44,849 nucleotides of DNA. Origin: Myxococcales bacterium (GTDB lineage Bacteria; Myxococcota_A; Polyangia; Polyangiales; Polyangiaceae). The stretch lies in contig JAJYCT010000002.1 in the NCBI GenBank assembly GCA_021778125.1, positions 1 to 44,849 of the forward strand, written 5' to 3'. Shown here one piece after another: positions 19,911-44,362 of the stretch; the first letter of the stretch is position 1, and each line of letters begins with the position of its first letter. The translations under genes and the position numbers were made by a program. Below the pieces are notes generated by a model, which searched no databases, was not told the DNA's origin, and saw nothing but the letters and a program-made list of their open reading frames with translations.

Positions 19911-19925
19911 ATGGAGACCCCGATC

Positions 19926-23705: not shown

Positions 23706-25000
23706 GCGAGCACACGGAGTCCAAGGACCGGAGCCAGCTCCGGCAGAAGCGGATGATCGCCGACCACTTCGAGCGCCTCTCGCGCGCGAAGGAGGAGGGC
23801 AAGAAGGTCGTCTACACCTTCGTGCCCGGCAACCTGACGGAGCTCATCGGAGCCTTCGACATGCTGCCGGTGCTCCCGGAGATCAACGCGCTGCAGTCGG
23901 GCATGCGCAAGAAGAGCGCGGGCTACATCGCCGAGGCCGAGAAGAGCGGGCACTCCGAGGACGTCTGCACGTACGTGAAGTGCGACATCGGGATGCTCAG
24001 GAGCGGCAACATCGGGCCGACGGGCACCAAGCTCCCCGAGCCCGACCTCCTGCTCCTCTCGTACACGGGCTGCTTCACGTTCATGAAGTGGTTCGAGCTC
24101 CTGAAGCAGGAATACAAGTGCCCGGTCGTGATGCTCCACGTCCCGTATCAGCCGGACGGGGTCATCACCGACGAGATGCGCTCGTACGTGGTCGAGCAGC
24201 TGCGCACCGAGGTCATCCCGGCCATGGAGCGCGTCACGGGCACTCGGGTCGACGTCGACAAGCTGGCGGCGCACCTCTCGCTGTCCAAGCAGGCCGAGGA
24301 CGATCTGGTCGCCGTCTGGGAGAGCGCGCGCCACCGCCCCTCGCCCATCGACGGGTACTTCGGCGGCGTCTACTACGTGGGCCCGATCTTCAGCTCGTTC
24401 CGCGGCTCCCACGACGCGGTCATGTACTACCGGGAGCTGCGCGAAGAGGTCGAGGCACGCGTCGCCCGCAAGGAGGGCCCGATGGCGCCCGACGGGCCGG
24501 TCAAGGAGAAGTACCGCCTGGTGGTCGAGGGCCCGCCCAACTGGACCAACTTCAACGAGTTCTGGCAGATGTTCAGCCGCGAGGGCGCGGTCGTCGTCTC
24601 CAGCACGTACACGCGCGTGGGCGGCCTCTACGACCAGGGCTTCCGCCACGATCCGAGCCACCCGCTCGACACGCTCGCCGACTACTGCCTCGGCTGTTAC
24701 ACCAACCTCGGCCTGCCCTCGCGCGTAGACCTGCTCGCCAAGTACATCCGCGAGTACGAGGCCGACGGGTTCCTGGTCAACAGCGTCAAGAGCTGCAACT
24801 CGTTCAGCGTCGGGCAGCTCCTGATGCTGCGCAAGCTCGAGGAGAAGACCGGCGTGCCCGGCGGCTTCATCGAGAGCGATCTGGTCGACCCGCGCTACTT
24901 CGGCAAGGCCAACATCGAGAACCGCGTCCAGAGCTACCTGCAGATGCTCGAGGCAAGAAAGGCGCGCGGCACGTCGGCCGACGCGGTGGTGTCGCCGTGA
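23702..25000 (+). CDS. bcrB: benzoyl-CoA reductase, beta subunit
   Basis: The 432-residue protein is the BcrB/BadE subunit. Together with BcrC it binds benzoyl-CoA and carries out two-electron reduction of the ring. Conserved pieces include KVVYTFVPGNLTELIGAF near the N-terminus, VCTYVKCDIGMLRSGNIG, YTGCFTFMKWFELL, ADYCLGCYTNLGLPSR and NSVKSCNSFSVGQ, whose cysteines are the likely cluster ligands. ATG 23702 overlaps the bcrC TGA, and its own TGA overlaps the GTG of bcrA. Length and motif order are normal for the family. Confidence 0.96.
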   Translation: MSEHTESKDRSQLRQKRMIADHFERLSRAKEEGKKVVYTFVPGNLTELIGAFDMLPVLPEINALQSGMRKKSAGYIAEAEKSGHSEDVCTYVKCDIGMLRSGNIGPTGTKLPEPDLLLLSYTGCFTFMKWFELLKQEYKCPVVMLHVPYQPDGVITDEMRSYVVEQLRTEVIPAMERVTGTRVDVDKLAAHLSLSKQAEDDLVAVWESARHRPSPIDGYFGGVYYVGPIFSSFRGSHDAVMYYRELREEVEARVARKEGPMAPDGPVKEKYRLVVEGPPNWTNFNEFWQMFSREGAVVVSSTYTRVGGLYDQGFRHDPSHPLDTLADYCLGCYTNLGLPSRVDLLAKYIREYEADGFLVNSVKSCNSFSVGQLLMLRKLEEKTGVPGGFIESDLVDPRYFGKANIENRVQSYLQMLEARKARGTSADAVVSP

Positions 25001-26358
25001 AGTGCGTCGTCGGCATCGATCTGGGCTCGACCACGACCAAGGCCGTCCTGCTCGACGAGCAGGGCGGGATCCTCGGCCGCGGGATCACCAACAGCCGCAG
25101 CAACTACGAGGTCGCGAGCGCGGTCGCGTGGACCGAGGCGGTGACGAGCGCCCGGTTCGACCTGCTCGAGCGCGCGATGCCCTCGACCTCGGGCAGCTGG
25201 GCAAAGCCGATGAAGGACGCGTTCCGCCTGGAGCTCTTCATCGACGAGCTGGCGGAGCTGCGCGCGACCATCCTGCGCAACCTCGAGCGCAGCCTGACGG
25301 TCCACGGGGACCGCAAGGCTCTCGCGACCACCGTCGGCGAGGTGCTCGATCGGGTGCGGCGCAAGGCGGAGCCGCTCTTCGTCGGCGGCGCGCCCCGCAG
25401 GAGCGAGTTCTTCCGCGACATCGCCGGCGCGCTCTACGTCGCCGAGGCAGAGGAGATCTCGCGCGCGGGAGGGGCGCCCTTCGAGCAGCTCGCGGCCCTC
25501 TACGACCGCGCGATTCTCGAGGTCGAGACCCGGGCGCAGCGGCGCGACGTCGGCGGGCTGCTCCGGCGCGCACTCGACCGCGTCCTGCCCGCGGACCGGG
25601 CCGAGAACGCGACCGCGCGCGCGGCCGCCGCGCAGGCCATCGCGACCGCGGCGGCCCAGACGATCGAAGAGATCGCCGTCGTCGGCACCGGCTACGGCCG
25701 GCAGACGCTGCCCTTCGCGAGGGAGTCGGTCCGCAGCGAGATCCTCTGCCACGGGCGCGGCGCCCACCGCGTCTTCCCGGGGACGCGAACCGTGCTCGAC
25801 ATCGGGGGCCAGGACACCAAGGCGATCCAGGTCGACGATCACGGCGTCGTCACGTCGTTCCAGATGAACGACCGGTGCGCCGCGGGCTGCGGCCGCTACC
25901 TGGGGTACATCGCCGACGAGCTGAACCTCGGCCTCCACGAGCTCGGCCCGCTCGCGCTCCAGGCCACCAAGAGCGTCAAGGTCTGCTCGACATGCACCGT
26001 GTTCGCCGGCGCCGAGCTGCGCGAGCGCCTCGCGCTCGGGCAGAAGCGCGAGGACATCCTCGCGGGGCTGCACCGGGCCATCATGCTGCGCGCGATGTCG
26101 CTGCTCGCGCGCTCGGGCGGCGTCCAGAACGAGTTCACGTTCACCGGCGGCGTCTGCAACAACGGCATGGCCGTCAAGGTCCTGCGCGAGCTCGTCAACG
26201 AGAACTACGACCCGACCACGACCCTCAACATCCACCCGGACTCCATCTACATGGGCGCGCTCGGCGCGGCGCTCTTCGGACTCGACGACGCGCGCGCGGG
26301 GCGCCTGGCGCCGATGCCCCCGTTCCTGCGCGCCGTTGCAAGCGAGGTGAGCGCATGA
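24997..26358 (+). CDS. bcrA: benzoyl-CoA reductase, alpha subunit (ATPase)
   Basis: The 453-residue BcrA/BadF subunit belongs to the ASKHA-type activase family. With BcrD it couples hydrolysis of two ATP per electron pair to electron transfer through a bridging [4Fe-4S] cluster. The phosphate-binding GIDLGSTTTKAVL is at residues 6-18, the second nucleotide motif VLDIGGQDTKAIQ is at about 267-279, and the cluster-cysteine segments are NDRCAAGCGRYLGYIADEL and VKVCSTCTVFAGAELRE. It has the extra internal region of about 150 residues that separates BcrA from the shorter BcrD. Start at GTG 24997, overlapping the bcrB stop. Confidence 0.95.
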   Translation: MKCVVGIDLGSTTTKAVLLDEQGGILGRGITNSRSNYEVASAVAWTEAVTSARFDLLERAMPSTSGSWAKPMKDAFRLELFIDELAELRATILRNLERSLTVHGDRKALATTVGEVLDRVRRKAEPLFVGGAPRRSEFFRDIAGALYVAEAEEISRAGGAPFEQLAALYDRAILEVETRAQRRDVGGLLRRALDRVLPADRAENATARAAAAQAIATAAAQTIEEIAVVGTGYGRQTLPFARESVRSEILCHGRGAHRVFPGTRTVLDIGGQDTKAIQVDDHGVVTSFQMNDRCAAGCGRYLGYIADELNLGLHELGPLALQATKSVKVCSTCTVFAGAELRERLALGQKREDILAGLHRAIMLRAMSLLARSGGVQNEFTFTGGVCNNGMAVKVLRELVNENYDPTTTLNIHPDSIYMGALGAALFGLDDARAGRLAPMPPFLRAVASEVSA

Positions 26359-27248
26359 GCGGCACGAGCGTCACGGCGGGCATCGACTGCGGATCGAGCG
26401 CCATCAAGGTCGCCATCGCGCGCAGCCACGTGGGCGAGGGCGGCGAGCTCCTCGCCACGAGCGTGCAGCGCATCCGGCGCCGCAACGTGCACGACGTGGC
26501 CAGGGCCGCGTTCGGCGAGGCGTGCGCCGCGGCAGGGGTCGGCCTCCCGGACTTCGCGTACGTCGCGAGCACGGGCGATGCGGACGTCATCGACTTTGCC
26601 ACGGGCCACTTCTACGGGATGACGACGCACGCCCGGGGCGCCCTGCACCTCTTCCCCGCGGCCCGCGGCGCGCTCGACATGGGCGCGCTGCACGCCCGCG
26701 CGATCAAGATGGACGAGCGCGGCAAGGTCCTCGGCCACCGGATGACGAGCCAGTGCGCGAGCGGCAGCGGGCAGTTCCTCGAGAACATCGCGCGCTACCT
26801 GGGCGTCCCGCTCGAGGACGTGGGCGCCCTGTCGATGCAGGCCAAGCCTGTCGAGGAGGTGTCGAGCATCTGCGCGGTGCTGGCCGAGACGGACGTCATC
26901 AACATGGTCAGCCGCGGGATGACCGCGGGCGAGATCCTCAAGGGCATCCACCTGAGCATCGCGGGCCGCCTCGTGCGCCTGCTGCGATCGGCCGGCGCCG
27001 AGGGCGTCGTGACGCTCACCGGCGGGCTCGCCGCGGACGTCGGCCTCATCGCGTGCATCCGCGAGCTCGTCGCCAAGGAGCTCGCGGGGCCCAAGAAGAA
27101 GAAGCTCGCGCCGATCGAGGTGTGCGCACACGAACACTCGATCCTGGCCGGCGCCATCGGCGCCGCACTGCTCGGCGCCTATCGTCACGATCAGCTTCTC
27201 AAGCGCGGCAAGCTCGCCCTCGCGGCCGGGGCCGCGCTCGCGCCCTGA
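26355..27248 (+). CDS. bcrD: benzoyl-CoA reductase, delta subunit (ATPase)
   Basis: The 297-residue BcrD/BadG subunit pairs with BcrA in the electron-activating module. GIDCGSSAIKVAI (residues 9-21) is the phosphate loop, SQCASGSGQFLENIARYL and SSICAVLAETDVINMVSRG provide the bridging-cluster cysteines, and LTGGLAADVGL is the adenosine motif. ATG 26355 overlaps the bcrA stop. The next gene follows after 26 bases with its own ribosome site, the loosest junction of the operon. No ferredoxin gene follows, although one is often found beside bcr clusters. Confidence 0.95.
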   Translation: MSGTSVTAGIDCGSSAIKVAIARSHVGEGGELLATSVQRIRRRNVHDVARAAFGEACAAAGVGLPDFAYVASTGDADVIDFATGHFYGMTTHARGALHLFPAARGALDMGALHARAIKMDERGKVLGHRMTSQCASGSGQFLENIARYLGVPLEDVGALSMQAKPVEEVSSICAVLAETDVINMVSRGMTAGEILKGIHLSIAGRLVRLLRSAGAEGVVTLTGGLAADVGLIACIRELVAKELAGPKKKKLAPIEVCAHEHSILAGAIGAALLGAYRHDQLLKRGKLALAAGAALAP

Positions 27249-27274
27249 GCGCTGCTCCGGGGAGGGACGCGTCG

Positions 27275-27766
27275 ATGGAACAAGCCCGGCTCGAGACGAT
27301 CACCCTGACGGTCAACGGCGACGTCCGTCGCATCGCCGTGCCGCCCGAGCGTACGCTCGTGGAGGTCTTGCGCGAGGGGCTGGGCCTCACGGGCACCAAG
27401 CAGGGCTGCGACGAGGGAGACTGCGGGGCGTGCACCGTGCTGCTCGACGGGCGCCCCGTGCTCTCGTGCATCACGCTCGCGGTGGAGGCCGACGGCGCGC
27501 GCGTCGAGACGGTCGAGGGCCTCGCCGACGGCCCCCGGCTGCACCCGCTGCAGGAGGCGTTCGTCCGGCACGGCGCCGCACAGTGCGGCTTCTGCACCTC
27601 GGGCGTGCTCGTGAGCGCGCGGGCGCTGCTCGAGCGCGAGCCGGCCCCCAGCCGCGAGGCGATCAAGACCGCCCTCTCGGGCAACCTGTGCCGATGCACC
27701 GGGTACACCAAGATCCTCGACGCCGTCGAGGACGCCGCGCGCGTGCTGCGCGAGGGCGGGCGATGA
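27275..27766 (+). CDS. hcrC: 4-hydroxybenzoyl-CoA reductase, gamma subunit ([2Fe-2S])
   Basis: The 163-residue protein is the small iron-sulfur subunit of a molybdenum hydroxylase. A plant-type cluster is bound by Cys45, Cys50, Cys53 and Cys65, and a second one by Cys104, Cys107, Cys139 and Cys141. It starts at ATG 27275 behind GGAGGG. In 4-hydroxybenzoyl-CoA reductase these clusters lie between the flavin/[4Fe-4S] subunit and the molybdenum site. By sequence alone it resembles the small subunits of xanthine or CO dehydrogenases; the identity rests on HcrB and the operon. Confidence 0.92.
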   Translation: MEQARLETITLTVNGDVRRIAVPPERTLVEVLREGLGLTGTKQGCDEGDCGACTVLLDGRPVLSCITLAVEADGARVETVEGLADGPRLHPLQEAFVRHGAAQCGFCTSGVLVSARALLEREPAPSREAIKTALSGNLCRCTGYTKILDAVEDAARVLREGGR

Positions 27767-30042
27767 ACGTCGTCGGCAAGCGCCGCCCGCGCACCGACTC
27801 GGCCGACCGGGTCACCGGGCGCACGCGCTTCGTCGACGATCTCACCTTCCCCGGGATGCTGCACGCCAAGATCGTCCGCAGCCCCCACCCGCACGCGCGC
27901 ATCGTGTCGATCGACGCGTCGCGCGCGCTGGCGCTGCCGGGCGTGCACGCCGTGGTGACGGGCAAGGACATGCCCGTGCGCTACGGCATCATCCCGTGGA
28001 CGCACGACGAGTACCCGCTGGCTCTCGAGCGCGCCCTCTACGTCGGCGACGCCGTCGCCGCGGTCGCGGCGATCGACGAGGCCACGGCCACCCGCGCGGC
28101 CCGACTCGTCGACGTCACCTGGGAGCCTCTGCCCCACGTGCTCGACCCCGAGGAGGCGCTCGCCAAGGACGCCCCGAAGCTTCACGACGAGGCTCGCCAC
28201 GGCAACGTGACCAAGCACGTCGAGCTCGTCTTCGGCGACGTCGACGCGTCGTTCGCGCGCGCCGACGTCGTCGCCGAGGGCGAGTACTTCTTCGCCGGCA
28301 GCACGCACGCGGCGCTCGAGCCGCACTGCGCGATCGGCGTCTGGGAGCCGACGGGCGTGCTCACCGTCTACAGCACGACGCAGGTCCCGCACTACCTTCA
28401 CCGCGAGCTCGCGCACGTGCTGTCGCTCGGGGCCGACCGGATCCGCGTCGTGCAGCCGCCGCTCGGCGGCGCGTTCGGGGGCAAGAGCGAGCCATTCGAT
28501 CTCGAGTTTTGCGCCGCGAAGCTCGCAATGGTGACCGGGCGCCCCGTCAAGATCCTCTACACGCGAGAGGAGGTCTTCTACGCACACCGCGGCCGCCACC
28601 CGATGAAGATGCACATGAAGCTCGGGGCGACGCGCGACGGCCGGCTGACCGGCTGCGACGCCCGGACGCTCATCGACGGCGGCGCCTACGCGTCGTTCGG
28701 CCTGGTGACCACGTACTACTCCGGACAGCTCCTGACCGCGCCGCTCGCGCTCGAGGCGTACCGCTTCCAGTCCACGCGCGTGTACACGAACAAGCCGGCG
28801 TGCGGCCCGAAGCGCGGCCACGGCAGCGTGCAGCCGCGCTTCGCCTTCGAGGTCACGGTCGACAAGCTCGCCGAGAAGCTCGGCGTCGACCCCATCGACC
28901 TGCGCCGCAGGAACCTGCTCGCGCCCGGCGCGCGCACCGTCAACGAGCTGCTCGTGCGCTCCAACGGCTTCGCCGAGTGCCTGCGGCGCGTCGAGGAGGC
29001 GAGCGGCTGGAGAGACAAGTTCCGCAAGCTGCCGTTCGGGCGCGGCGTGGGGGTCGCGGGCAGCTTCTACATCAGCGGCACCAACTACCCCATCTACCCG
29101 AACGAGATGCCGCAGAGCGGCGTGCAGCTCAAGGTCGACCGCTCCGGCCGCGTGACGGTCTTCGCGGGGACGAGCGAGATCGGCCAGGGATCGGACGCGA
29201 TGCTGGCCGTCATCGTGTGTGAGGAGCTGGGCGTACCCGCCGAGAGCGTCCGCGTCGTCACCGGTGACACGGACCTTGGCCCCGTCGACCTCGGAGCGTA
29301 CTCGAGCCGCATCACGATGATGGCGGGCAACGCCTGTCTGCAAGCGGCGCGCGCGATCGCCGACCAGGTGCGCGCCGCCGTGGCCAAGCGCTGGGAGTGC
29401 GCGCCCGGGGACGTCGTGCTCGCCGCGGGGCAGGCGATGCTGCGCGAGGACACCGCGCGCCAGATCCCGATCGCCGAGGCCTTCCAGTGGGCCGAGACCG
29501 ACGGCGGGACGCTCGGCGCCGTGGGCAGCTACCGCAGCCCCAAGGACGTTCACGGCGAGTACCGCGGCGGCACGATCGGAGCCTCGCCCGCGTACTCGTT
29601 CACCGCGCACGTCGCCGAGGTCGAGGTGGACGCCGAGACCGGCGAGGTCAAGGTCGAGCACCTCTGGATCGCGCACGACTGCGGGCGGGCGCTCAGCCCC
29701 GTCATCGTCGAAGGTCAGCTCGAGGGCGGCGCGTACATGGGGTTCGCCGAGGCGATCTTCGAGCAGCACGACTTCCGCCCCAGCGGCCTGCACCGCGGGC
29801 CGTCGCTGCTCGACTACCGCATCCCCACGTCGCTCGACGTTCCGGAGCTGCACGCGCTCATCGTCGAGTCCAGCGATCCCGAGGGTCCCTACGGCGCCAA
29901 GGAGGCGGGCGAGGGTCCGCTTCACCCGTCGATCCCGGCGATCGCGAACGCGATCCACGACGCGGTCGGGATCCGCCTCGACGCGCTGCCCTTCTCGCCA
30001 TCGCGCGTGCTCGCGACGCTGCAGGAGGAACGCCGATGCTGA
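27763..30042 (+). CDS. hcrA: 4-hydroxybenzoyl-CoA reductase, alpha subunit (molybdopterin)
   Basis: The 759-residue large subunit binds the molybdopterin-cytosine-dinucleotide cofactor. Family markers include the PPLGGAFGGKSEP segment at about 229-241, GTSEIGQGSDAM near residue 470, and KEAGEGP near the C-terminus, where Glu717 is the conserved active-site glutamate. The enzyme removes the para hydroxyl group of 4-hydroxybenzoyl-CoA, giving benzoyl-CoA, which links phenol, p-cresol and 4-hydroxybenzoate to the reductase encoded just upstream. ATG 27763 overlaps the hcrC stop by four bases. Length is close to that of the Thauera protein. Confidence 0.93.
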   Translation: MNVVGKRRPRTDSADRVTGRTRFVDDLTFPGMLHAKIVRSPHPHARIVSIDASRALALPGVHAVVTGKDMPVRYGIIPWTHDEYPLALERALYVGDAVAAVAAIDEATATRAARLVDVTWEPLPHVLDPEEALAKDAPKLHDEARHGNVTKHVELVFGDVDASFARADVVAEGEYFFAGSTHAALEPHCAIGVWEPTGVLTVYSTTQVPHYLHRELAHVLSLGADRIRVVQPPLGGAFGGKSEPFDLEFCAAKLAMVTGRPVKILYTREEVFYAHRGRHPMKMHMKLGATRDGRLTGCDARTLIDGGAYASFGLVTTYYSGQLLTAPLALEAYRFQSTRVYTNKPACGPKRGHGSVQPRFAFEVTVDKLAEKLGVDPIDLRRRNLLAPGARTVNELLVRSNGFAECLRRVEEASGWRDKFRKLPFGRGVGVAGSFYISGTNYPIYPNEMPQSGVQLKVDRSGRVTVFAGTSEIGQGSDAMLAVIVCEELGVPAESVRVVTGDTDLGPVDLGAYSSRITMMAGNACLQAARAIADQVRAAVAKRWECAPGDVVLAAGQAMLREDTARQIPIAEAFQWAETDGGTLGAVGSYRSPKDVHGEYRGGTIGASPAYSFTAHVAEVEVDAETGEVKVEHLWIAHDCGRALSPVIVEGQLEGGAYMGFAEAIFEQHDFRPSGLHRGPSLLDYRIPTSLDVPELHALIVESSDPEGPYGAKEAGEGPLHPSIPAIANAIHDAVGIRLDALPFSPSRVLATLQEERRC

Positions 30043-31013
30043 CGATGCCGCCGTTCGCAGTGGTGCGTCCGCGGTCGGTCGACGAGGCCGTGGACGCGCT
30101 CGCGCAGGGCGGGCGGCTCGTGGCGGGTGGCACCGACCTCGTGCCGAACCTCAAGCGGGGCCTGCTCGATCCGAAGCGGCTCGTGTCGCTGCGGCGCGTG
30201 GCCGCGCTCCGCGGCGTCCACACCGAAGAGGGCGGCGCGCTCGTCGTCGGTGCGGGCACGACGCTCGTCGATCTGGCTGCCGACACGCGCGTGCGCGAGA
30301 CGTGGTCCGCCCTCGCCCGCGCCGCGGAGGTCGTCGCTTCGCCGCCCATCCGCAACGTCGCCACTCTCGGCGGCAACGTGTGCCTGGACACGCGCTGCGC
30401 GTACTACGACCAGACCGACTTCTGGCGCGGCGCCCTCGGCCACTGCCTCAAGACGTGCGGCGACGTCTGCCACGTCGTGCCATCGGGCAAGCGATGCGTC
30501 GCGGCGTTCTCGGCCGACACGCCGCCGGTGCTCATCGCGTACGGTGCCACGGCGACGCTCGTGTCCGCGCGAGGGTCGAGGACGGTGCCGGTGGCGGAGC
30601 TGTACGTCGCCGACGGGGCGAGGCACCTGGCGCTCGACCCGGACGAGCTCCTGACCGAGGTCCGCGTCCCGCGCCCCGGGCCCGGCGCGCGCGCGGCGTA
30701 CGTGAAAGTCCGTTCGCGCGCGGCGATCGACTTCCCCGCCCTGTCGATCGCGCTCGTCTTGGCGCGCGCGGGCGACGGCGCGGTGAGCGACGTCTCGGTG
30801 GTCGTCGGGGCGCTCGGCGCGAAGCCTCGCGTGGTCGACGGGCTCGCGGCGATCGCCGCGGGGAGGCCGCTCGACGAGGCGACGATCGGGGCAATCGCCG
30901 AGCGAGCGCGGGCGGCGTGCCATCCGCTGGGGAACATCGACATCGACGCGGACTGGCGCCGCGCGGTGCTGGCGGTGCAGGTGAGGCGGGCGCTCGCGAC
31001 GCTGGGAGCGTAG
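30036..31013 (+). CDS. hcrB: 4-hydroxybenzoyl-CoA reductase, beta subunit (FAD and [4Fe-4S])
   Basis: The 325-residue flavin subunit has the FAD-binding pattern AGGTDLVPNLK (30-40) and TLGGNVCLDTRC (110-121). It also carries the insertion that distinguishes 4-hydroxybenzoyl-CoA reductase from other xanthine-oxidase-family enzymes: Cys121, Cys137, Cys145 and Cys154, at exactly the spacing reported for the extra [4Fe-4S] cluster of the Thauera enzyme (there numbered one higher, from memory). This cluster feeds low-potential electrons into the flavin. ATG 30036 lies inside the end of hcrA (seven-base overlap), preceded by GGAGGA. It is the last gene of the operon and converges with boxB ten bases away. 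Confidence 0.95.
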   Translation: MLTMPPFAVVRPRSVDEAVDALAQGGRLVAGGTDLVPNLKRGLLDPKRLVSLRRVAALRGVHTEEGGALVVGAGTTLVDLAADTRVRETWSALARAAEVVASPPIRNVATLGGNVCLDTRCAYYDQTDFWRGALGHCLKTCGDVCHVVPSGKRCVAAFSADTPPVLIAYGATATLVSARGSRTVPVAELYVADGARHLALDPDELLTEVRVPRPGPGARAAYVKVRSRAAIDFPALSIALVLARAGDGAVSDVSVVVGALGAKPRVVDGLAAIAAGRPLDEATIGAIAERARAACHPLGNIDIDADWRRAVLAVQVRRALATLGA

Positions 31014-31022
31014 GACGGCCGC

Positions 31023-32453
<1,431 letters not shown>

Positions 32454-32474
32454 GACGGGGCGGCTCCGGGGCAA

Positions 32475-34127
32475 TCAGGTGCGGTTGAAGTCGAACTCGG
32501 GGCGCTCGGGCTTCCCGTAGAGGGTGAGCGCGCCGCGCGGGCCGACGGCGTTGGGGCGCTGGAAGATCCAGTTCTGCCACGCGGTCAGGCGCCCGAAGAT
32601 CTTGGTCTCCATGGTCTCGGGCCCGCCGTAGCGAAGGCTGGCTTCCATGCCAGTCATCGCGTCGGGCGACAGGCTCGCGCGCTCCTCGAACGCGATGCGG
32701 ACCTCGTCGTCCCAGTCGATGTCGTCGGGCGCGAACGTCACGAGGCCCGCAGCGACGGCCGCCGGGGTCCCGATGGGCCCCGAGAGCTCGAGCGCCCGCG
32801 CGACGCGCTCGGGCTCGCGCAGGAAGCGGCTCTGCAGGCGCGTCAGGCCGTTGCCCATCGGCAGCGGGCCCGCGTTCATCGGCGAGACGCGGAGCTCGTT
32901 TCTCCCGTCGGGATCGTCGAGCATGTAAAGGCGGTCGGCTGCGAGGGCGATCTCGAGCATCGACCCGGCGAAGCAGCTGCCGGGCTCGGAGAGCGCGAAA
33001 AGGCTCCTGGCGCTGTTGTCGAGCCGCTTGAGGACGCGCTTGATGAGCAGGGTCACCTCGCGCACCAGGCCGTCGTCCCTGTGCTTCGCAAGCATCGCGT
33101 CGACGGCGAGCACCTGCGCGGGATCGCCGCTGGTGCGCAGGGCGATGACGCCGGTCTGCGGGTGGTTGAAGCGCAGATCGAGCAGCGCGTCGTCGAGTTC
33201 GCGCCAGGCGCGGATCGCCCACGCGGCGCTGCCGGCCTTCGCCAGCTCGTCGGGCGTCTGCGGCTGCGGGCCCTCGGGCGCGCGCATCGTGAGCGTCGCC
33301 TTGCGGGCGGCCGCGTCGAGCTCGAGCGTGACGTACCTGCGCTCGGCGCCGAGCGGCTCGAGCTTCACGGCCTTGAAGGCCTTGCGCTTGCTGCGCGCGA
33401 CCATCGCGTCGAGGCGGCGCTTCACGGCGGCGTCGAAGTCCTTCTTGCCGGGCGCCTCGTCGACGATCGCCCACTCTACCGCGCGCTTGCCGCGCACGCC
33501 CTCGGCCACGGTGGAGAACACGTCGGCCAGATCGCGGCGCACCTTGCGCTTGTCGACCAGGCGCGTGAGCCCGCCGGTGCCGGGGAGCACGCCGAGCAGC
33601 GGCGCCTCGGGCAGGCTGACGGCGGCCGTGCCGTCGTCGACGAGCACGATCTCGTCGCACGCGACGGCCAGCTCGTAGCCGCCGCCCGACGACGTCCCCG
33701 CCAGCGCGGCGAGCGAGCCGATGCCACTCTCGGCGCTCATCTCCTCGAGATACAGGCGCGTCTCGTTGGTGAACTTGCAGAAGTTCACCTTGAAGCCGTG
33801 GGTGCTGCTGCCCAGCATGTAGATGTTCGCGCCCGAGCAGAAGATGCGGTCCTTGCCGCTCGTGAAGACGAGCGCCTTGACCTCGGGGTGCTCGAAGCGA
33901 ACGCGCTGGAGCGCGTCGGCGAGCTCGATGTCGACGCCGAGGTCGTACGAGTTGAGCTTGAGCGGGTATCCGGGTCGCAGGCCCTCGCCCTCCTTGACGT
34001 CGAGCACGAGCCTCGCGACGGCGCCGCCGTGCTCGGGGGGGACCTCGAGCCGCCAGTGGCGGTAGCGATCGGGGTGCGTCTCGAAGCGAACGGGAGGGAG
34101 GGACGAGTCGTCGGCGTGGGCGACCAT
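32475..34127 (-). CDS. boxC: 2,3-epoxybenzoyl-CoA dihydrolase (BoxC)
   Basis: The 550-residue enzyme is the long crotonase-superfamily protein BoxC, which hydrolytically opens 2,3-epoxybenzoyl-CoA to 3,4-dehydroadipyl-CoA semialdehyde and formate. N-terminal crotonase features include IFCSGANIYMLG (about 95-106), AGTSSGGGYELAVACDEI and APLLGVLPGTGGLTR. The C-terminal half carries FNHPQTGVIALRTSG and LPMGNGLTRLQSRFL. Length is normal. It heads the leftward boxC-boxB unit, whose start faces boxR across 66 bases; no strong ribosome site is visible upstream of its ATG. Confidence 0.96.
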   Translation of the reverse strand: MVAHADDSSLPPVRFETHPDRYRHWRLEVPPEHGGAVARLVLDVKEGEGLRPGYPLKLNSYDLGVDIELADALQRVRFEHPEVKALVFTSGKDRIFCSGANIYMLGSSTHGFKVNFCKFTNETRLYLEEMSAESGIGSLAALAGTSSGGGYELAVACDEIVLVDDGTAAVSLPEAPLLGVLPGTGGLTRLVDKRKVRRDLADVFSTVAEGVRGKRAVEWAIVDEAPGKKDFDAAVKRRLDAMVARSKRKAFKAVKLEPLGAERRYVTLELDAAARKATLTMRAPEGPQPQTPDELAKAGSAAWAIRAWRELDDALLDLRFNHPQTGVIALRTSGDPAQVLAVDAMLAKHRDDGLVREVTLLIKRVLKRLDNSARSLFALSEPGSCFAGSMLEIALAADRLYMLDDPDGRNELRVSPMNAGPLPMGNGLTRLQSRFLREPERVARALELSGPIGTPAAVAAGLVTFAPDDIDWDDEVRIAFEERASLSPDAMTGMEASLRYGGPETMETKIFGRLTAWQNWIFQRPNAVGPRGALTLYGKPERPEFDFNRT

Positions 34128-34149: not shown

Positions 34150-34205
34150 ACTTGCGCCCGAGCAAGTAGTATAGTGCCGATCCCTTACGACACATGAACT
34201 ATACT
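34150..34205. promoter_or_regulatory. divergent boxC/boxR control region with two inverted repeats
   Basis: ACTTGC-N6-GCAAGT occupies 34150-34167. AGTATAGT (34168-34175) recurs inverted as ACTATACT (34198-34205), with centres 30 bases apart and the second copy lying over the first codons of boxR. The left copy contains TATAGT reading rightward and TATACT reading leftward, both close to a -10 hexamer. BoxR is the likely ligand of one or both repeats, giving coordinated and autogenous control; this is inference. Confidence 0.6.
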
Positions 34206-34984
34206 GCGCCTCCCGAACAGCAGCGCCGCACGGATCTCCTGCGGGCCCTCGGCCACGCGGTGCGGACGCGTCGCTCGCAGCTCGGCCTCACCATGAGGAC
34301 GCTCGCCGAGCGCGCGGGCGTGAGCGAGCGCTTCCTGGCGCAGCTCGAGACCGGTGAGGGCAACATCTCGGTCGTGCGCTTGCAGGACGTGGCCGAGGCG
34401 CTCGGCACGACGGCCTCGTACCTGCTCGACGCGCAGGTCGAGGAGCGCCCCGTGGCGCGCAAGGTGGTGGCGCTTCTGGGTGTGCGCGGGGCCGGCAAGA
34501 GCACGCTCGGGCCGGAGGTCGCGCGGCGCCTGGGTGTCGGGTTCTTCGAGCTCGACGCGCTCGTGGCGCGCGAGGCGAGCATGCCGCTGTCGACGATCTT
34601 CGAGATCCACGGCGAGGCCTGGTTCCGGCGGCTCGAGCGCGACGTGCTCCGGCGGTTCCTCGACGAGCACCAGGGCGCCGTCCTCGCCACCGGCGGCGCC
34701 ATCGTCACCAACGAGCAGACGTACGCGCTCCTGCGCGAGCGGGCGACGACGGTGTGGCTGCGCGCCAGCGCGCAGGATCACTGGGACCGGGTCGTGCGCC
34801 AGGGCGACGTCCGCCCGATGAACAACCGCGCGAACGCGATGAGCGAGCTCAAGTCGCTCCTTCGCGCGCGCAAGCCGCTGTACGCTCTCGCCGATCACGT
34901 GGTCGACACGTCGAGCTCGTCGCTCGACGACGCCGCGGCCCGTGTCGTGTCTGCCGTCGCCGAAAGCAAGAGGAGTCGAGGACG

Positions 34985-34988
<4 letters not shown>
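34194..34988 (+). CDS. boxR: BoxR/BzdR-type regulator: HTH fused to shikimate-kinase-like domain
   Basis: The 264-residue protein has an N-terminal XRE helix-turn-helix (about residues 15-75) and a C-terminal shikimate-kinase-like domain with an intact P-loop, GVRGAGKST at 96-104, and a TGGAIVTNE segment near 166-174. This two-domain design is that of BzdR and BoxR, repressors that bind benzoyl-CoA in the kinase-like domain. The protein probably controls boxC-boxB and itself from the intergenic repeats, and could also influence the anaerobic operon. ATG 34194 has no ribosome site and a very short leader. Its stop overlaps the boxD start (ATGATG). Confidence 0.95.
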
Positions 34989-36541
<1,553 letters not shown>

Positions 36542-37266: not shown

Positions 37267-38418
37267 TCAGGCGCCCCGCAGCACCAGCGACACGACGGCC
37301 GCTCCCGCCGCGAGGCGCGCGATCTCGAGGGGCCACGCCCAGCGCTTGCCCTCGAGCAGCCCGCCCCACGCGACGAGCGACGCGAGGAACACGACGGCCG
37401 CCGCGCCGAGCGTCGCGACAGGGGTCCTGGACTCGATCCAGAGGTACGCGGCCGTCGCCCCGCCGACGATCGCGAACTGCGCCGCGACGTACACCTGCAT
37501 GCCCCGCCGTGCGGGGGCGTCGTAGCGCGGGTGCGCGGCCGGATCGGCGGGCGGCACGGTGACCGGGCCCCCGAGGTCCGCCGGCCTCCACTCGGGCGGC
37601 GCCAGCCACACGCGCACCTGGTCGAGCGGCGCGCGCGTCGCCCGCGACATCCGCCACAGCTCCCGCCAGTGCGCGACGTTCGCGAGCAGCGGGTTCCATG
37701 TCCCGAGCGCCTTCACGGTGCCGTACACCGGCTCGCGCGTCTCCTCGATGAACGTACCGAAGAGGCGATCCCACACGATGAAGATCCCCGCGTAGTTGCG
37801 GTCGACGTACTCGGGGTCGATCCCGTGGTGCACGCGGTGGTGGCTCGGCGTGTTGAGCACCCACTCGAGGGGCCCGAGCTTGCCGATGGCGCGCGTGTGG
37901 ATCCAGAACTGGTAGAGCGTGTCGATCGTGACCCCCGCCAGGTACAGGACCGGCGGGAACCCGAGGACCGCGAGCGGCAGGTAGAACGCCGGCACGACGA
38001 GCGCCTCGAGCCACGGCTGCCGCAGCGCGACCGACAGGTTGTACTCCTCGCTCTGGTGGTGCACCGCGTGCACCGCCCAGAGGAAGCCCACGCGATGGCT
38101 CGCGCGGTGAAACGCGTAGTAGCCGAGGTCCACCCCCAGCACGAGGAGCACCCACGCGAGCGGCGACGCGGCGTCGAACGTGTAGACGCGCGCGTGCACG
38201 AAGAGCCACGTGTAGGGCACGAGCGCGGCGAGCTTGAAGAACGGCTCGAGCACCTGCTGGCCGACGCCGCACGCGAGGTTGGTGATCGAGTCGGCGAAGC
38301 GGTACGCGCGCCGGACACCGCGCAGGCGCAGCGCGACCAGCTCGACGGCGATGGCCACGAAGAACAGCGGGATGGCGAAGGCGATCGACTTCTCGTCCAC
38401 GGGGGCCGCGACCGTCAC
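37267..38418 (-). CDS. sterol desaturase / fatty acid hydroxylase family membrane protein
   Basis: The membrane-bound non-heme diiron enzyme family is identified by the three histidine clusters HRASH, HAVHH and HHRVHHG, set between hydrophobic helices, with about 90 further residues and two more helices at the C-terminus. It should hydroxylate or desaturate a lipid or sterol-like substrate with O2. GTG 38418 (383 residues with start) is preferred, because the frame above it (to ATG 38568) encodes a polar stretch that would run into the divergent beta-propeller gene. Myxobacteria make sterols and unusual lipids, but the substrate cannot be told from sequence. Confidence 0.85.
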   Translation of the reverse strand: MTVAAPVDEKSIAFAIPLFFVAIAVELVALRLRGVRRAYRFADSITNLACGVGQQVLEPFFKLAALVPYTWLFVHARVYTFDAASPLAWVLLVLGVDLGYYAFHRASHRVGFLWAVHAVHHQSEEYNLSVALRQPWLEALVVPAFYLPLAVLGFPPVLYLAGVTIDTLYQFWIHTRAIGKLGPLEWVLNTPSHHRVHHGIDPEYVDRNYAGIFIVWDRLFGTFIEETREPVYGTVKALGTWNPLLANVAHWRELWRMSRATRAPLDQVRVWLAPPEWRPADLGGPVTVPPADPAAHPRYDAPARRGMQVYVAAQFAIVGGATAAYLWIESRTPVATLGAAAVVFLASLVAWGGLLEGKRWAWPLEIARLAAGAAVVSLVLRGA

Positions 38419-38579
38419 GATACACAATCGGTCCCGACGCGCCGACCCGGGCGACGGCGTCCCGGTGGCACGGTCCGACACAGGTGTGACGGGGCAACTC
38501 TCCTTGCTCTTACGGGCACTTGGATCCTCATGAGCCCCGGCACCGTACGTGCTCTTGCCCCGGTCCACAGGTGGATCCC

Positions 38580-41500
38580 ATGCGCCCTCTTCGCTCCTCT
38601 TTCCTCGTCGTCGCGACCCTCACCGGCCTCGCCGCCTCTTGCGCCCTGCTCGACGCGTGCGGCGGAAGCGCCTCCAGCTCGAACCGCCGCGCCATCGGGC
38701 AGACCTCGTATCAATCGGCACCGGCCCCCGGCAGCGCCAACCTCGGCAGCGGCGGCGCGTTCGGCGCCGCCGACGCCGGCGCCGCGGCGAGCGGGAGCAG
38801 CGGCAGCAGCTCGGGCGGCGGCAGCAACGCCTCGGGCTCGGGCGGCTCGGCCCCGAGGACGGTCCAGGAGACCGACATCTACCGCGTCGACGGCAACCGC
38901 CTCTACTACCTGAACTCGTACCGGGGACTGATGGTCTTCGACGTGACCGACGTCGATCACCCGAAGCTCGTGGGCCGCTCACCCATCTTCGGCGACCCGC
39001 AGGAGATGTTCATCTCGAACGGCATCGCCACGGTCGTCGTCGGTGACTGGTACGGGACCGCCCCCGACGGCAGCCCGTACTACGGGTCGATCGTGCGCGG
39101 CCTCGACTGCAACGATCCGGCCCACATCCAGGACGTGGGCGACGCGTACCTGCGCGGCTGGGTGAAGGACACGCGCATCGTCGGCAGCGTGCTCTACACG
39201 GTCGCCGAGGACTACGGCTGGGAGTACGGCTGGGAGTACGCCGGCTACGGCGTCTCGAGCACGAGCCAGGGGCCGACCGTGTCGATCGCGTCGGTGAGCT
39301 TCGCGGGGGGCGCCGTCCGGAAGGTCGGCGAGCAGACGTTCACCGGGCAAGGCGGCATCTTCAACGTGACGCCGTCGTCGATTCTCTTCGCGAGCCAGCA
39401 CGTCACCGATCCGAACAACCCGTACGGCGGCTCGTCGCAGACCGACCTGCGCTACGTCGACATCAGCGATCCGGGCGGCGCCATCCGCGTACGCGGCGGC
39501 CTCACGATCGACGGCTGGGTGAGCGGCTGGGGCCCGGACAACGGGCGCTGGAACGTCGACTTCGCCGACGGCGTGCACGCGCACACGATCGGCTGCTCCA
39601 GCCAGTACTGCGGCAGCGGCACCGACCAGTACCTGCTCACGACGGTCGACTTCTCGAACCCCGACGCGCCCGCCGTCGCGTCGACGCTGCCCATCGCCAA
39701 CCTCGGCTGGTCTGCGGCGGCGCGCTTCGACGTCGATCCAAACGGCACGTACGCGCGCATGTACCTGTCGCCGTCGAGCTACGGGTACGGCTCGGTCGGC
39801 AGCACGCCGCTGTCGATCTACGACCTGTCCAAGCCGGCGGCCCCGGCGCTCGCGGGCTCGACGACCCTCGACGGCCAGATCTGGCTCTTCATGCCGCAGG
39901 GCAACCAGCTCTTCGCGCTCGGCAACACGTACACCGGCGGCCAGTACGACCAGAGCCTCGTCGAGGTTCAGTACGTCGACGTGAGCAACCCGGCGGCGCC
40001 GCACGCGCTCGGCTCGACGCAGTTCGGCTCGGGCTGGTCGTGGTCGCCGGCAGCCGACACGTTCAAGGCGTTCATCGTCAACCCGACGCTCGGCCTGGCG
40101 GTGATCCCGTTCAGCGGGTGGGACTACACGGGCCAGAACTACAACAACGGCCTTCAGCTCGTGCAGTTCAACCAGACGGCGCTCACCGGCAGCGGGACGG
40201 CGCACACCAAGGGCTGGGTCCAGCGCGGCATCTTCGTCGGCGACCGGCTGCTGTCGCTCAGCGATCAGTCGCTCGGCGTCATCGACTACTCGAACCCCTC
40301 GGCCCCGCAGGTGGTCAGCGAGATGACGCTGGCGCGCAACGTCGTCAACGCCAAGCCGCAGGGCCCGACCATCGCCGAGCTGTCGAGCGACTGGTGGGGG
40401 AACGACACCACGAGCTCCGAGATGCGGGTGCTGCCCATCGCGGACGCCGCCGAGACGACCGACAACGGCCAGGGCGTCAGCACCACGATCCGCGGCGTCG
40501 ACGCGCAGGTCTTCCAGAACGGCTCGCTGGCGTACGTCGTCACCGACGTGCAGGTACCCACGCCGTGCAGCTCCAGCGGCTACGGTCCGAGGGACCCGAA
40601 CGGCCAGTGCTCCGCGTACACGCAGCAGGTGCAGGTCGTCGACACGTCGAACGGCGGCGCGAAGCTGCGCGGCGCGATCACCCTGCCGGCGCTGCCGTAC
40701 GGCTACTACGGCGGCTGGGGATGGGGCGGCTACTACTACTACGACTGGTACAACGGCGCGGACGTCGTGCAGGTCGGCAGCAACGCGCTCGCCTTCCGCC
40801 GGTGGTTCCCGCAGTACGCGCCCGGAAACGGCGGCCCGACCTTCGTGCAGGACCTCGACGGCCTCTTCGTCATCGACCTGGCGAACCCCGACGCGCCGGC
40901 CCTCGCGTCGCTGACGGTCACCGATGATCCCACCGGCTGGTGGGGCGACATGACGGCGATCGGCGACACGCTCTACACGACGCACTACGAGTGGGTGAAC
41001 CGCCCCGATCCCAGCGCGCCCCAGGGCACGACGTACTTCGTACGCTACTACCTCGATCAGGTCGACCTCAGCGACCGCGCCCACCCGCGCATCGGGCAGA
41101 AGGTCAACGTGCCGGGTGTCCTGGTAGGCGCGTCGACGAAGGATCCGTCGATGCTCTACTTCGCCGACTACGTGTGGGACGGCTCGAACGAGCGCGACGA
41201 CGTCTCCGTCTGCCAGCTCCAGGGCAGCGTCTGCGCTCTGCAGAGCATCACCGAGATGGACGGCTACGTCGGCAACGTCTTCGTGCAGAACGACCGCGCG
41301 TACACGACCGTCACCGAGTACGACTGGATGCAGAACAGCGGCGGGACGTACACGCAGCCGTACTCGGAGCTGCACCAGCTCGACCTGTCCAACCCGCAGG
41401 GCCCGGTCGACCGCGTCTCGACCGACGCGACCAAGGGCTGGGGCTGGCTCCTGGGCCTGGCGGGCGACCGCGCCATCGTCACCTCGGGCTGGGGCCAAGT

Positions 41501-41657
41501 GGGCGTCGACATCTACCAGCTGAGCGACACCGCGGCTCCCCGATTCCAGGAGAGCGTGCGCACGCAGGGCTGGGGGAGCAACTCGCTCGCGCGGCAGGGC
41601 AACACGCTCTACCTCTCGAGCGGATACTGGGGCGTGCAGCCGATCGTGCTCCAATAG
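38580..41657 (+). CDS. large secreted beta-propeller protein
   Basis: From ATG 38580 the protein has 1025 residues. A signal sequence with candidate lipidation sites at Cys21 and Cys27 leads to a Gly/Ser/Ala-rich linker (about 30-92). The rest consists of repeated blade-like units with the pattern VDVSNPAAPHALGS, DYSNPSAPQVVS, DLANPDAPALAS and DLSNPQGPVDRV, as in the secreted beta-propeller (Beta_propel / LVIVD-like) families. The middle is very rich in Tyr, Trp and Gly, and a 12-base tandem duplication encodes GWEYGWEY. Probably a cell-surface protein; the ligand is unknown. The start is favoured over upstream in-frame codons because the signal peptide begins there. Confidence 0.88.
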   Translation: MRPLRSSFLVVATLTGLAASCALLDACGGSASSSNRRAIGQTSYQSAPAPGSANLGSGGAFGAADAGAAASGSSGSSSGGGSNASGSGGSAPRTVQETDIYRVDGNRLYYLNSYRGLMVFDVTDVDHPKLVGRSPIFGDPQEMFISNGIATVVVGDWYGTAPDGSPYYGSIVRGLDCNDPAHIQDVGDAYLRGWVKDTRIVGSVLYTVAEDYGWEYGWEYAGYGVSSTSQGPTVSIASVSFAGGAVRKVGEQTFTGQGGIFNVTPSSILFASQHVTDPNNPYGGSSQTDLRYVDISDPGGAIRVRGGLTIDGWVSGWGPDNGRWNVDFADGVHAHTIGCSSQYCGSGTDQYLLTTVDFSNPDAPAVASTLPIANLGWSAAARFDVDPNGTYARMYLSPSSYGYGSVGSTPLSIYDLSKPAAPALAGSTTLDGQIWLFMPQGNQLFALGNTYTGGQYDQSLVEVQYVDVSNPAAPHALGSTQFGSGWSWSPAADTFKAFIVNPTLGLAVIPFSGWDYTGQNYNNGLQLVQFNQTALTGSGTAHTKGWVQRGIFVGDRLLSLSDQSLGVIDYSNPSAPQVVSEMTLARNVVNAKPQGPTIAELSSDWWGNDTTSSEMRVLPIADAAETTDNGQGVSTTIRGVDAQVFQNGSLAYVVTDVQVPTPCSSSGYGPRDPNGQCSAYTQQVQVVDTSNGGAKLRGAITLPALPYGYYGGWGWGGYYYYDWYNGADVVQVGSNALAFRRWFPQYAPGNGGPTFVQDLDGLFVIDLANPDAPALASLTVTDDPTGWWGDMTAIGDTLYTTHYEWVNRPDPSAPQGTTYFVRYYLDQVDLSDRAHPRIGQKVNVPGVLVGASTKDPSMLYFADYVWDGSNERDDVSVCQLQGSVCALQSITEMDGYVGNVFVQNDRAYTTVTEYDWMQNSGGTYTQPYSELHQLDLSNPQGPVDRVSTDATKGWGWLLGLAGDRAIVTSGWGQVGVDIYQLSDTAAPRFQESVRTQGWGSNSLARQGNTLYLSSGYWGVQPIVLQ

Positions 41658-41676: not shown

Positions 41677-43488
41677 ATGCCCCGCACGCTACGCCTGATC
41701 GCGAACGCGATGTGGCCCGCTGTGCGCGCGTTCAACGCGCGCTTCGAGCGGGCCTCGCCGCATCCGAAGTGGGCCCCCGGGCCCCTGCTGAAGAGCCGGG
41801 AGCGCACCTCCCCTCCCCTCGGGTTCCCGCGCGAGACCGACTCGCTCTGCCCCGCGTGTGTGAAGGAGGTGCGCGCGACCGTCCTCGAGGGGCGAGCCGA
41901 CCTCCGCGCGCTGGCCGAGGGGCGGCCGGCCGAGGTACGGGCACGCCTCGAGGAGCAGGGCGGCGCGATCGTGATGCGCAAGACGTGCGAGAAGCACGGG
42001 CCGGTCGAGGACGTCGTGTCGGTCGACCCGGCGTTCACCCGGCGCATCGAGGGCCTCTTCCCCGGGCGCGACTACCTCGCGCCGCCGACGAAGCTGCGGG
42101 ATCACGGTCGGTCGAGCATCCAGTGGGGGCGCGGCAGCGTGCTGACGGTGGACCTCACCAACCGCTGCAACATGATGTGCGACCCGTGCTTCATGGACGC
42201 CAACCAGGTCGGGTTCGTACACGAGCTCGCGTGGGACGACGTCCAGAAGATCCTCGACGACGCGATGACGGTCGTGCCGCGGCGCCAGCTGAGCGTGCAG
42301 TTCTCGGGCGGCGAGCCGACGCTCGCGCCGCACTTCCTGCCCGCGATCCGCTACGCGCGCGACCTCGGCTTCTTCTGCGTGCAGTGCGCGACCAACGGGA
42401 TCCGCTTCGCGCAGGAGCCGGACTTCGCCCGCGCGGCCAAGGAGGCGGGGCTGCGCATCGCGTACCTGCAGTTCGACGGCGTCGGCGAGGAGGCCAACGC
42501 GCACCGCAAGGTCGGCAACCTCTATGACGTGAAGCTGCGCGCGATCGAGAACCTCGCGGCGGCCGGGGTCGACGTCGTGCTCGTGGTCACCGTCGTGCGG
42601 GGGCTCAACGACGATCAGGTGGGGCGCGTCGTACGGTTCGCGATCGATCACGCCGACAAGATCACGGTCGTGAGCTTCCAGCCCGTGAGCTTCACGGGGC
42701 GCGACGAGGACGTCGCGGACGAGGAGCGCCGGGCGAAGCGCTACACGCTCTCTCACCTGGCCCACGACCTGCAGCGGCAGCTCGGCGCGACCGAGCCGAT
42801 GCGCGACTGGTTCCCGCTGTCGGCGATGGGGCCGTTCGGCGATCTGACCGACCTGCTCCAGGCGGGGCGCTCGGACTGGGGCGCACTGCAGTGCGGGTGC
42901 CACCCGGACTGCGGGATCGGCACGGCGCTGCTCGTGCACAAGCGCACGCGCGAGATGGTGCCGCTCGCGCAGGTGCTCGACGTCGAGGGCCTGATGTCCG
43001 ATCTGCGCGAGATCACCGACGCCGCGCAGCCGCGCGCCGTGACGCTCGCCCAGGTCGCGCTCGCCCTCTGCCGCCGCTTCGACGCGCACCGCGCGCCGCG
43101 CGGCTTCACGCTCGCGACGCTGCTGCGACAGTTCCTCAGCCAGACGGGCGCGCGCGGCCGCCGCGTCGGCGAGTACGAGAGCGACGCCGGCCAGTTCGAG
43201 TGGCGCGTGCTGTTCGTCGCCGGCATGTGGTTCCAGGACCTCTTCAACTACGACTTCCGGCGCACCGAGATGTGCATCATCCCGTACGGGACGCAGCAGG
43301 GAGAGATCAGCTTCTGCGCGTACAACACGGGCCTGGGGTGGCGGCAGGTCATCGAGAAGATGCACGCGACCGCGACGGTGGCCGACTGGTACCGGACCAA
43401 GGGGCGGCATCCGGTCCACGCGAACCACCAGCGGCTCGACCTGCCTCCGCGCACGGGCCCCGTGCGCCTGCCGGTCCTTCCGGGCTGA
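41677..43488 (+). CDS. radical SAM protein resembling the Tes (tetraether lipid synthase) family
   Basis: The 603-residue protein has an N-terminal zinc/iron knuckle (LCPAC at 57-61 and KTCEKHG at 102-108), the radical SAM motif CNMMCDPC (Cys164, Cys168, Cys171), and SGGEPTLAP for S-adenosylmethionine binding. Auxiliary-cluster cysteines follow in CGCHPDCGIGT and further on (EMCIIPYG, SFCAYNTG). This layout of knuckle, core and C-terminal cluster is shared with archaeal Tes (MJ0619-like) and its bacterial relatives, which join lipid alkyl chains. The subfamily placement is by eye; lipid coupling here is a hypothesis. ATG 41677 lies 19 bases after the beta-propeller gene, and the next gene starts one base after its stop. 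Confidence 0.85.
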   Translation: MPRTLRLIANAMWPAVRAFNARFERASPHPKWAPGPLLKSRERTSPPLGFPRETDSLCPACVKEVRATVLEGRADLRALAEGRPAEVRARLEEQGGAIVMRKTCEKHGPVEDVVSVDPAFTRRIEGLFPGRDYLAPPTKLRDHGRSSIQWGRGSVLTVDLTNRCNMMCDPCFMDANQVGFVHELAWDDVQKILDDAMTVVPRRQLSVQFSGGEPTLAPHFLPAIRYARDLGFFCVQCATNGIRFAQEPDFARAAKEAGLRIAYLQFDGVGEEANAHRKVGNLYDVKLRAIENLAAAGVDVVLVVTVVRGLNDDQVGRVVRFAIDHADKITVVSFQPVSFTGRDEDVADEERRAKRYTLSHLAHDLQRQLGATEPMRDWFPLSAMGPFGDLTDLLQAGRSDWGALQCGCHPDCGIGTALLVHKRTREMVPLAQVLDVEGLMSDLREITDAAQPRAVTLAQVALALCRRFDAHRAPRGFTLATLLRQFLSQTGARGRRVGEYESDAGQFEWRVLFVAGMWFQDLFNYDFRRTEMCIIPYGTQQGEISFCAYNTGLGWRQVIEKMHATATVADWYRTKGRHPVHANHQRLDLPPRTGPVRLPVLPG

Positions 43489-43489
43489 C

Positions 43490-44362
43490 ATGACGACCCG
43501 ACCCACGTCGTGGTGGCTGGAGACGCTGCGCCGGAGGCGCGCGCGCATGGACGCCGAGCGCCTCGATCTGTCGCGACCGCCGGAGTTCGCGTCGCCCGCA
43601 GAGAGAGAGGCGGCGATCGCGTTCTTCAACGCGGCGTACCGCGCCGAAGAGTCCGGCCTGCGACAGGCGCACGAGGTCGCGGACGAGGTGGGCGCGCGCG
43701 ATCCGGACCTCGGCGAGTGCCTGCGCCTCTACGGGGACGAGGAGGGCTGGCACCGGTCGCTGCTCGCCGAGTTCCTCGCGTGGCTGGGCGGCGACGTGCG
43801 CCCGATGGGTCCCGTGACGCGCACCTTCTACGGCCTGTACGGGCGCGCCGAGCGCGTCGAGTCGATCGTGCTCGTGAACCTGATGTTCGAGACGATGGGG
43901 TCGACGACGTACCGCATGGCCCTGCGCCGCGCGAGGCACCCGGCCGTGCGGCAGATGCTGGCGATCCTCACGCGCGACGAGTCGTTCCACGTGCCGCTCA
44001 ACGTGCACTTCCTCCGCGATGCCGTCGCGCACGCGCCGGGCGCGCGCCCCAGGCTGCGGGCGCTCTACCACGCGACGTTCGTGGCGCTCGTGGCGTCGAC
44101 CGTGGCCAGCCGCCGGCGCGCGGGGGCGTTCGACGGCATCCCGACCTCCGAGCTCGCGCGCGCATACGCCACCGAGCTCGCCCGCCTCTTCCTCGAGGAG
44201 CACGCCCTGGGGCTCGCCCCGTCGCGGGCGCTGCTCGTGGCGATGCGCCTCGACCGGCGCGAGCTGCTGCGCATGCCCTCCCCGGTGAGCCTCGAGGCGG
44301 CCGAGCAGGCGGCCGACCGGCGCAACGACGTGCATGAGTACGGTGTGCGCGGACGCGAGTGA
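43490..44362 (+). CDS. ferritin-like diiron-domain protein
   Basis: The 290-residue, mostly helical protein has the four-helix carboxylate pattern of ferritin-like oxidases: a glutamate in AEES (53-54), EEGWH (Glu85, His88), a glutamate in FETMGS (134) and DESFH (Glu164, His167). These would bind two irons. No signal peptide or membrane segment is seen. The start lies one base after the stop of the radical SAM gene, so the two are coupled and probably act in one pathway, for example oxidation or desaturation of the same lipid substrate. No close named family was recognised. Confidence 0.8.
   Translation: MTTRPTSWWLETLRRRRARMDAERLDLSRPPEFASPAEREAAIAFFNAAYRAEESGLRQAHEVADEVGARDPDLGECLRLYGDEEGWHRSLLAEFLAWLGGDVRPMGPVTRTFYGLYGRAERVESIVLVNLMFETMGSTTYRMALRRARHPAVRQMLAILTRDESFHVPLNVHFLRDAVAHAPGARPRLRALYHATFVALVASTVASRRRAGAFDGIPTSELARAYATELARLFLEEHALGLAPSRALLVAMRLDRRELLRMPSPVSLEAAEQAADRRNDVHEYGVRGRE

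Follow-up and report, generated by a model that had tools for sequence, protein, structure and literature searches.

Near the right end of the window, as we call the whole 44,849-nucleotide stretch of DNA that was analysed, two genes of a soil myxobacterium lie in tandem whose products are predicted to act on long lipid chains. This stretch represents one of the 597 contigs of a 5.9-Mb assembly with an estimated completeness of 94.6%. The product of the first gene is, as judged from its sequence, a bacterial homologue of the tetraether lipid synthase Tes, and belongs to a large and distinct clade of Polyangiales and Acidobacteriota; the second encodes a putative diiron enzyme. The best explanation overall, which we hold tentatively and at slightly less than an even chance, is that a lipid-chain-coupling radical enzyme is accompanied by a diiron enzyme that is optional and takes long-chain substrates. 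Branched membrane-spanning lipids serve as temperature and pH proxies, and their bacterial source and enzymes are debated. A Tes clade that has lost a cofactor, that occurs in Sorangium, Polyangium and Minicystis, all of them culturable, and that is widespread among the Acidobacteriota is directly testable in the laboratory, and a linked diiron enzyme, if the linkage is true, would add a step for which we found no published proposal.

41677-43488, + strand: Tes-like radical SAM protein, 603 aa, of the clade without the N-terminal auxiliary cluster
43490-44362, + strand: ferritin-like, ADO-like diiron protein, 290 aa, from its predicted fold and ligand set

Both reading frames are intact, and the gap between the Tes-like stop codon and the diiron-gene start codon is one base (TGA C ATG), just as a preliminary description of this DNA had placed them. 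Neither is a chance open reading frame, because each is conserved as a protein elsewhere: 80 relatives of the Tes-like protein (54-73% identity) were fetched, the majority of them encoded in genomes of Myxococcota and Acidobacteriota, and for the diiron protein 33 orthologues were aligned (48-71% identity). The nearest matches to the Tes-like protein are from Myxococcales and Polyangiaceae, including Sorangium, Minicystis and Polyangium. Promoter and terminator scans returned nothing exceeding chance. The two genes are probably translated together in the source genome, and we infer that they are co-transcribed.

Gene neighbourhood and co-occurrence

The preliminary description had called the two genes coupled; that they form a conserved pair was not confirmed. 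No diiron homologue was found in the fetched flanks of any of the 80 other Tes-like loci, and the two genes adjoin each other in none of 78 relatives or 380 Myxococcota genomes, lying on different contigs or far apart; within the single-contig 11.4-Mb genome G033 they are separated by 3.3 Mb. Nor was any conserved neighbour of the Tes-like gene found: among the gene clusters that flank it, none is present in more than nine of the 80 loci. Synteny with the closest relative (G002) is lacking, with nothing that flanks the window's Tes-like gene being shared; the G002 copy is flanked by a histidine-ammonia-lyase-like gene, among others. In the window, a large beta-propeller protein (PF09826, LVIVD) with a lipoprotein-like N-terminus is encoded at 38580-41657 (+), on the strand of the Tes-like gene and ending 19 bases upstream of it, and is not kept beside other Tes-like genes.

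The diiron gene has varied surroundings. Elsewhere it adjoins an ABC transporter pair or, in some seven genomes, a UbiE-like methyltransferase; in one related family it forms an operon with a polyamine aminopropyltransferase, an FAD oxidoreductase and a membrane protein. Operons of this kind, at L125 (3475-11632), L124, L126 and L128, contain a polyamine aminopropyltransferase of the PRK03612 type, the ADO-like diiron gene and an FAD oxidoreductase, most copies also having the membrane protein, whose family is unassigned; they represent a different partner set of the diiron family. Because it has these other operon partners in other genomes, the diiron gene may serve something else.

Among the 380 Myxococcota genomes the Tes-like gene is present in 27 of the 28 with the diiron gene and in 23 of the 352 without it. 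Two surveyed genomes (G008 and G027) have the diiron gene and no Tes-like match. Because lineage alone can yield such co-occurrence, an rpoB tree of the relatives was built and used for a tree-aware (Pagel-type) test on 66 genomes. Dependence of diiron-gene turnover on the Tes-like gene is favoured over independence (p 0.005; full dependence, 0.03), and the same test gives p values of 0.87 and 0.91 for two control genes of the window, encoding an FA_hydroxylase-domain protein and a BoxC-like protein. Significance is not reached in the independent-pairs test, which is stricter and gives about two pairs for and one against. In the Acidobacteriota (297 genomes) the diiron gene occurs in one genome, which has the Tes-like gene and had been chosen via its Tes-like locus.

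We regard the linkage between the two genes as suggestive. A lack of conservation elsewhere, which the preliminary description had named as grounds for refuting its proposal, applies to adjacency (0/80 loci) and does not apply to co-occurrence (27/28). The two-enzyme route put forward earlier retains the nested distribution and this one adjacency in its favour, and has against it that the pair stands together in no other genome. It is a serious possibility, short of probable, that these are accessory genes for lipids or stress, unrelated to each other, with a common lineage distribution, which became neighbours by chance and each work alone. The unconserved adjacency, the several other partners of the diiron gene and the non-significant independent-pairs test all speak for such a reading; furthermore, the window was singled out for its adjacency, so that a single adjacency is weak evidence and adds little alone. 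Chance neighbours do not as readily account for the nesting of the diiron gene in Tes-like genomes, for the tree-aware result with its clean controls, or for the several cases in which the diiron gene changes within a genus while the background is Tes-positive.

The Tes-like protein

Several lines of evidence place the product of the upstream gene in the Tes family, as had been proposed from its sequence. First, Pfam searches identify a Radical_SAM domain (1.4e-19) and, at the N-terminus, the zinc ribbon of the MJ0619 group (HMPTM, 7e-12). Secondly, the Tes model (NF045702) outranks all other NCBIfam models, matching at 9e-99 and 331 bits over model positions 2-484 of 486, a score that is below the curated equivalog cut-off of 450 bits; clade members in 46 genomes score 302-350 bits, every one of those scored falling below the cut-off. 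Thirdly, the AlphaFold2 model (pLDDT 79.5, pTM 0.85) matches the GDGT-MAS crystal structure 7tom over its full length (E 4.5e-34, TMt 0.86, 28% identity). The best structural matches are 7tom and 7tol (E about 1e-34), and the next are to the rSAM core alone (E about 1e-7).

MJ0619 carries four metal sites, and its Met439 is a labile cluster ligand (Lloyd et al., PMC9433317). When 95 sequences of the clade are aligned with MJ0619, the following correspondence emerges.

41848-41997, + strand: rubredoxin-type site, C58-X2-C61...C104-X2-H107, invariant or nearly so in 95 homologues (motif defined in PMC9433317)
42091-42114, + strand: N-terminal auxiliary [4Fe-4S] site, three Cys missing and the His kept; gapped in 95/95 homologues
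42166-42189, + strand: radical SAM CxxxCxxC (C164, C168, C171), invariant
42892-42912, + strand: CGCHPDC motif with C412 of the C-terminal cluster and the clade-wide C406 and C408, invariant in 95
43225-43227, + strand: M517, the equivalent of MJ0619 Met439, invariant in 95
43273-43317, + strand: C533 and C547, the other C-terminal cluster Cys, aligned with MJ0619 C455 and C470, invariant

The ligands of three sites (rubredoxin-type, radical SAM and C-terminal) are retained in all 95 sequences or in all but one. The N-terminal Cys/His knuckle noticed in the preliminary description is the rubredoxin-type site, with C104 and H107 aligned to C33 and H36 of MJ0619. The auxiliary-cluster cysteines noted along with it are present for the C-terminal cluster (C412, C533 and C547) and absent for the N-terminal one: C73, C77 and C80 of MJ0619 lie opposite gaps in every clade sequence, with only the His of that site retained. 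By comparison, a canonical Tes of the bacterium HR08 (G446; locus L276) retains the N-terminal auxiliary Cys as CPQDCGLC. Within the CGCHPDC motif C406, C408, H409 and C412 are all invariant across the 95 homologues; C408 is common to the clade and the HR08 Tes, and C406 is absent from both MJ0619 and the HR08 Tes. Residues Q268, S271 and R275, of the loop that closes the active site, are also invariant or nearly so. Since three metal sites are kept and the N-terminal cluster Cys are missing, the protein is a Tes variant minus one cofactor and not a canonical Tes.

The clade thus shares with Tes/GDGT-MAS (MJ0619, 7tol, 7tom; NF045702) the full-length fold, the rubredoxin-type site, the radical SAM cluster, the C-terminal [4Fe-4S] ligands with the labile Met, and the substrate-loop Q, S and R, and differs from it in its 30% identity to MJ0619, the lost N-terminal cluster Cys, the extra C406 and the sub-cut-off score. 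Zeng et al. reported in 2022 456 bacterial Tes homologues, from Acidobacteria and others, and proposed them for branched GDGTs (PMC8941075). The clade is about as close to archaeal Tes as the criteria of that study ask (7tol: E 6e-70, 30% identity); the best Acidobacterial Tes described there are 40-42% identical to archaeal Tes, whereas the clade stands apart from them as a group that has lost one cluster. A 2025 survey considers the activity of bacterial Tes homologues unconfirmed (PMC11868695), and the bacterial enzymes with reported activity are Mss and Ger (Sahonero-Canavesi et al.; PMC13274423). The Mss/Ger pathway resembles the present proposal in that bacterial enzymes couple acyl tails to give membrane-spanning lipids, and Mss is treated in PMC13274423 as an enzyme distinct from Tes. 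A search of the T. maritima genome with the Tes model gave no match at 1e-40. We found no published work on the missing cluster of the clade, or on the diiron gene, in the openly accessible literature.

The loss of one Tes cofactor cluster, as read from the alignment, counts against our preferred explanation. The clade might have left lipid coupling for some other radical reaction, such as a methylation-type reaction, a dehydrogenation or the cross-linking of another hydrophobic substrate, with the product being further oxidised by the diiron enzyme. The absence of C73, C77 and C80 and the presence of C406 in 95/95 members would fit such a change, as would the scores below the Tes cut-off throughout. 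HR08 holds a canonical Tes (~502 bits) together with a cluster-less clade member, and because both are kept the two need not be redundant; this makes HR08 a useful organism in which to compare the functions of the two Tes types. We nonetheless think a departure from lipid coupling unlikely, as the clade keeps all the C-terminal ligands that take part in forming the C-C bond, along with the substrate-loop residues, and the fold match is full-length.

The diiron protein

The preliminary description had also reported a complete diiron ligand set in the downstream protein, and this is confirmed by the alignment, in which each of the following is invariant in 34 orthologues.

43646-43648, + strand: diiron ligand E53
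43742-43753, + strand: diiron ligands E85xxH88
43889-43891, + strand: diiron ligand E134
43979-43990, + strand: diiron ligands E164xxH167

Searches against Pfam give resemblances to AurF, Ferritin_2 and Rubrerythrin that are all below the cut-off; a phmmer search of the PDB finds no sequence match, and a profile search of the PDB with the diiron family yields chance matches only. The AlphaFold2 model (pLDDT 89.5) has as its top Foldseek matches the cyanobacterial aldehyde-deformylating oxygenases (ADO; E from 2.6e-3, prob 1.00, TMt 0.71-0.77). Behind these come ribonucleotide reductase R2 and R2-like ligand-binding oxidases. The metal ligands of ADO are E / ExxH / E / ExxH, the same pattern as in the diiron protein (PMC4286721), and the predicted diiron helical-bundle fold is shared. 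ADO itself acts on long hydrophobic substrates, and one of the ADO structures matched was solved with palmitic acid bound. Because ADO binds long-chain fatty compounds, a long-chain substrate can fairly be inferred for the diiron protein from what is a remote fold match, and the lipid-type substrate suggested earlier is made plausible to that extent. The protein is unlike ADO in showing no sequence similarity to it in a phmmer search of the PDB, in being 290 rather than about 220 aa long, in matching by fold only (E 2.6e-3), and in that no acyl-ACP reductase was recognised as an adjoining partner.

The ADO-like predicted fold, together with the other operons in which the gene is found, could also mean that the protein is a fatty-aldehyde/alkane enzyme (a true ADO-like enzyme) or an R2lox-like oxidase not directly linked to Tes chemistry, belonging in other lineages to its polyamine or methyltransferase operon. 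The nesting of the diiron gene among Tes-like genomes speaks against this, and we consider it doubtful.

Proposed mechanism

We return to the explanation favoured at the outset, a radical enzyme that couples lipid chains and an optional diiron enzyme, for which the substrate, reaction and step order are proposed. The Tes-like clade has dropped its N-terminal auxiliary iron-sulphur cluster, and its enzyme would most likely employ a 5'-deoxyadenosyl radical and the retained C-terminal cluster on the alkyl tails of membrane phospholipids, either coupling the tails as Tes does or otherwise modifying an unactivated carbon. If it follows the course established for MJ0619, hydrogen would be abstracted from an unactivated lipid-tail carbon, the C-terminal cluster would hold the intermediate, and a second tail would be joined to it. 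The diiron oxygenase, of predicted ADO fold, would activate oxygen beside a long alkyl chain, its substrate being a long-chain aliphatic compound. Its gene is an accessory gene of shifting neighbourhood, and because the Polyangiales retain it almost only alongside the Tes-like gene, the enzyme probably works on the lipid pool that the Tes-like enzyme uses. An oxygen-using partner for an oxygen-sensitive radical enzyme is unusual but conceivable.

A more specific version, which we offer as speculation and consider improbable as it stands, is that aerobic soil myxobacteria make a tail-to-tail (diabolic-type) lipid with a cluster-less Tes variant and then oxidise or trim it with an ADO-like oxygenase, which would constitute an undescribed module. 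Against lipid coupling stands that we know of no membrane-spanning lipid from the Polyangiales, and none was found in the literature searched.

Other genes in the window

37267-38493, opposite strand to the Tes-like gene: FA_hydroxylase-domain protein, about 3 kb away

The sterol-desaturase-family hydroxylase that the preliminary description had placed about 3 kb from the Tes-like gene does exist, with no linkage to that gene having emerged. A three-enzyme lipid route that includes it, as was suggested there, has proximity in its favour and is highly improbable, as the gene is on the opposite strand with the 3-kb beta-propeller gene in between, no homologue lies near the 80 other Tes-like genes, and the two genes do not co-occur (Fisher 0.31; tree-aware p 0.87); we have rejected it as a third member of the pathway.

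Further to the left, the segment at 18870-34127 encodes on the + strand a set resembling ATP-dependent benzoyl-CoA reductase (two HGD-D proteins, an ADH and an enoyl-CoA hydratase) together with molybdenum-hydroxylase subunits, and directly after them on the - strand apparent boxB and boxC genes, assigned by reading of the sequence. Anaerobic and aerobic benzoyl-CoA routes would thus appear to stand side by side in a myxobacterium. To the right of these (34194-34988) is a putative XRE-type regulator fused to a shikimate-kinase-like domain, again read from the sequence, as in benzoate box regulons, and adjoining it is an aldehyde dehydrogenase gene (34985-36541, Pfam-checked). A further gene, at 14075-15244 (-), encodes a single polypeptide in which a radical SAM domain precedes a 2Fe-2S ferredoxin (Fer2) domain.
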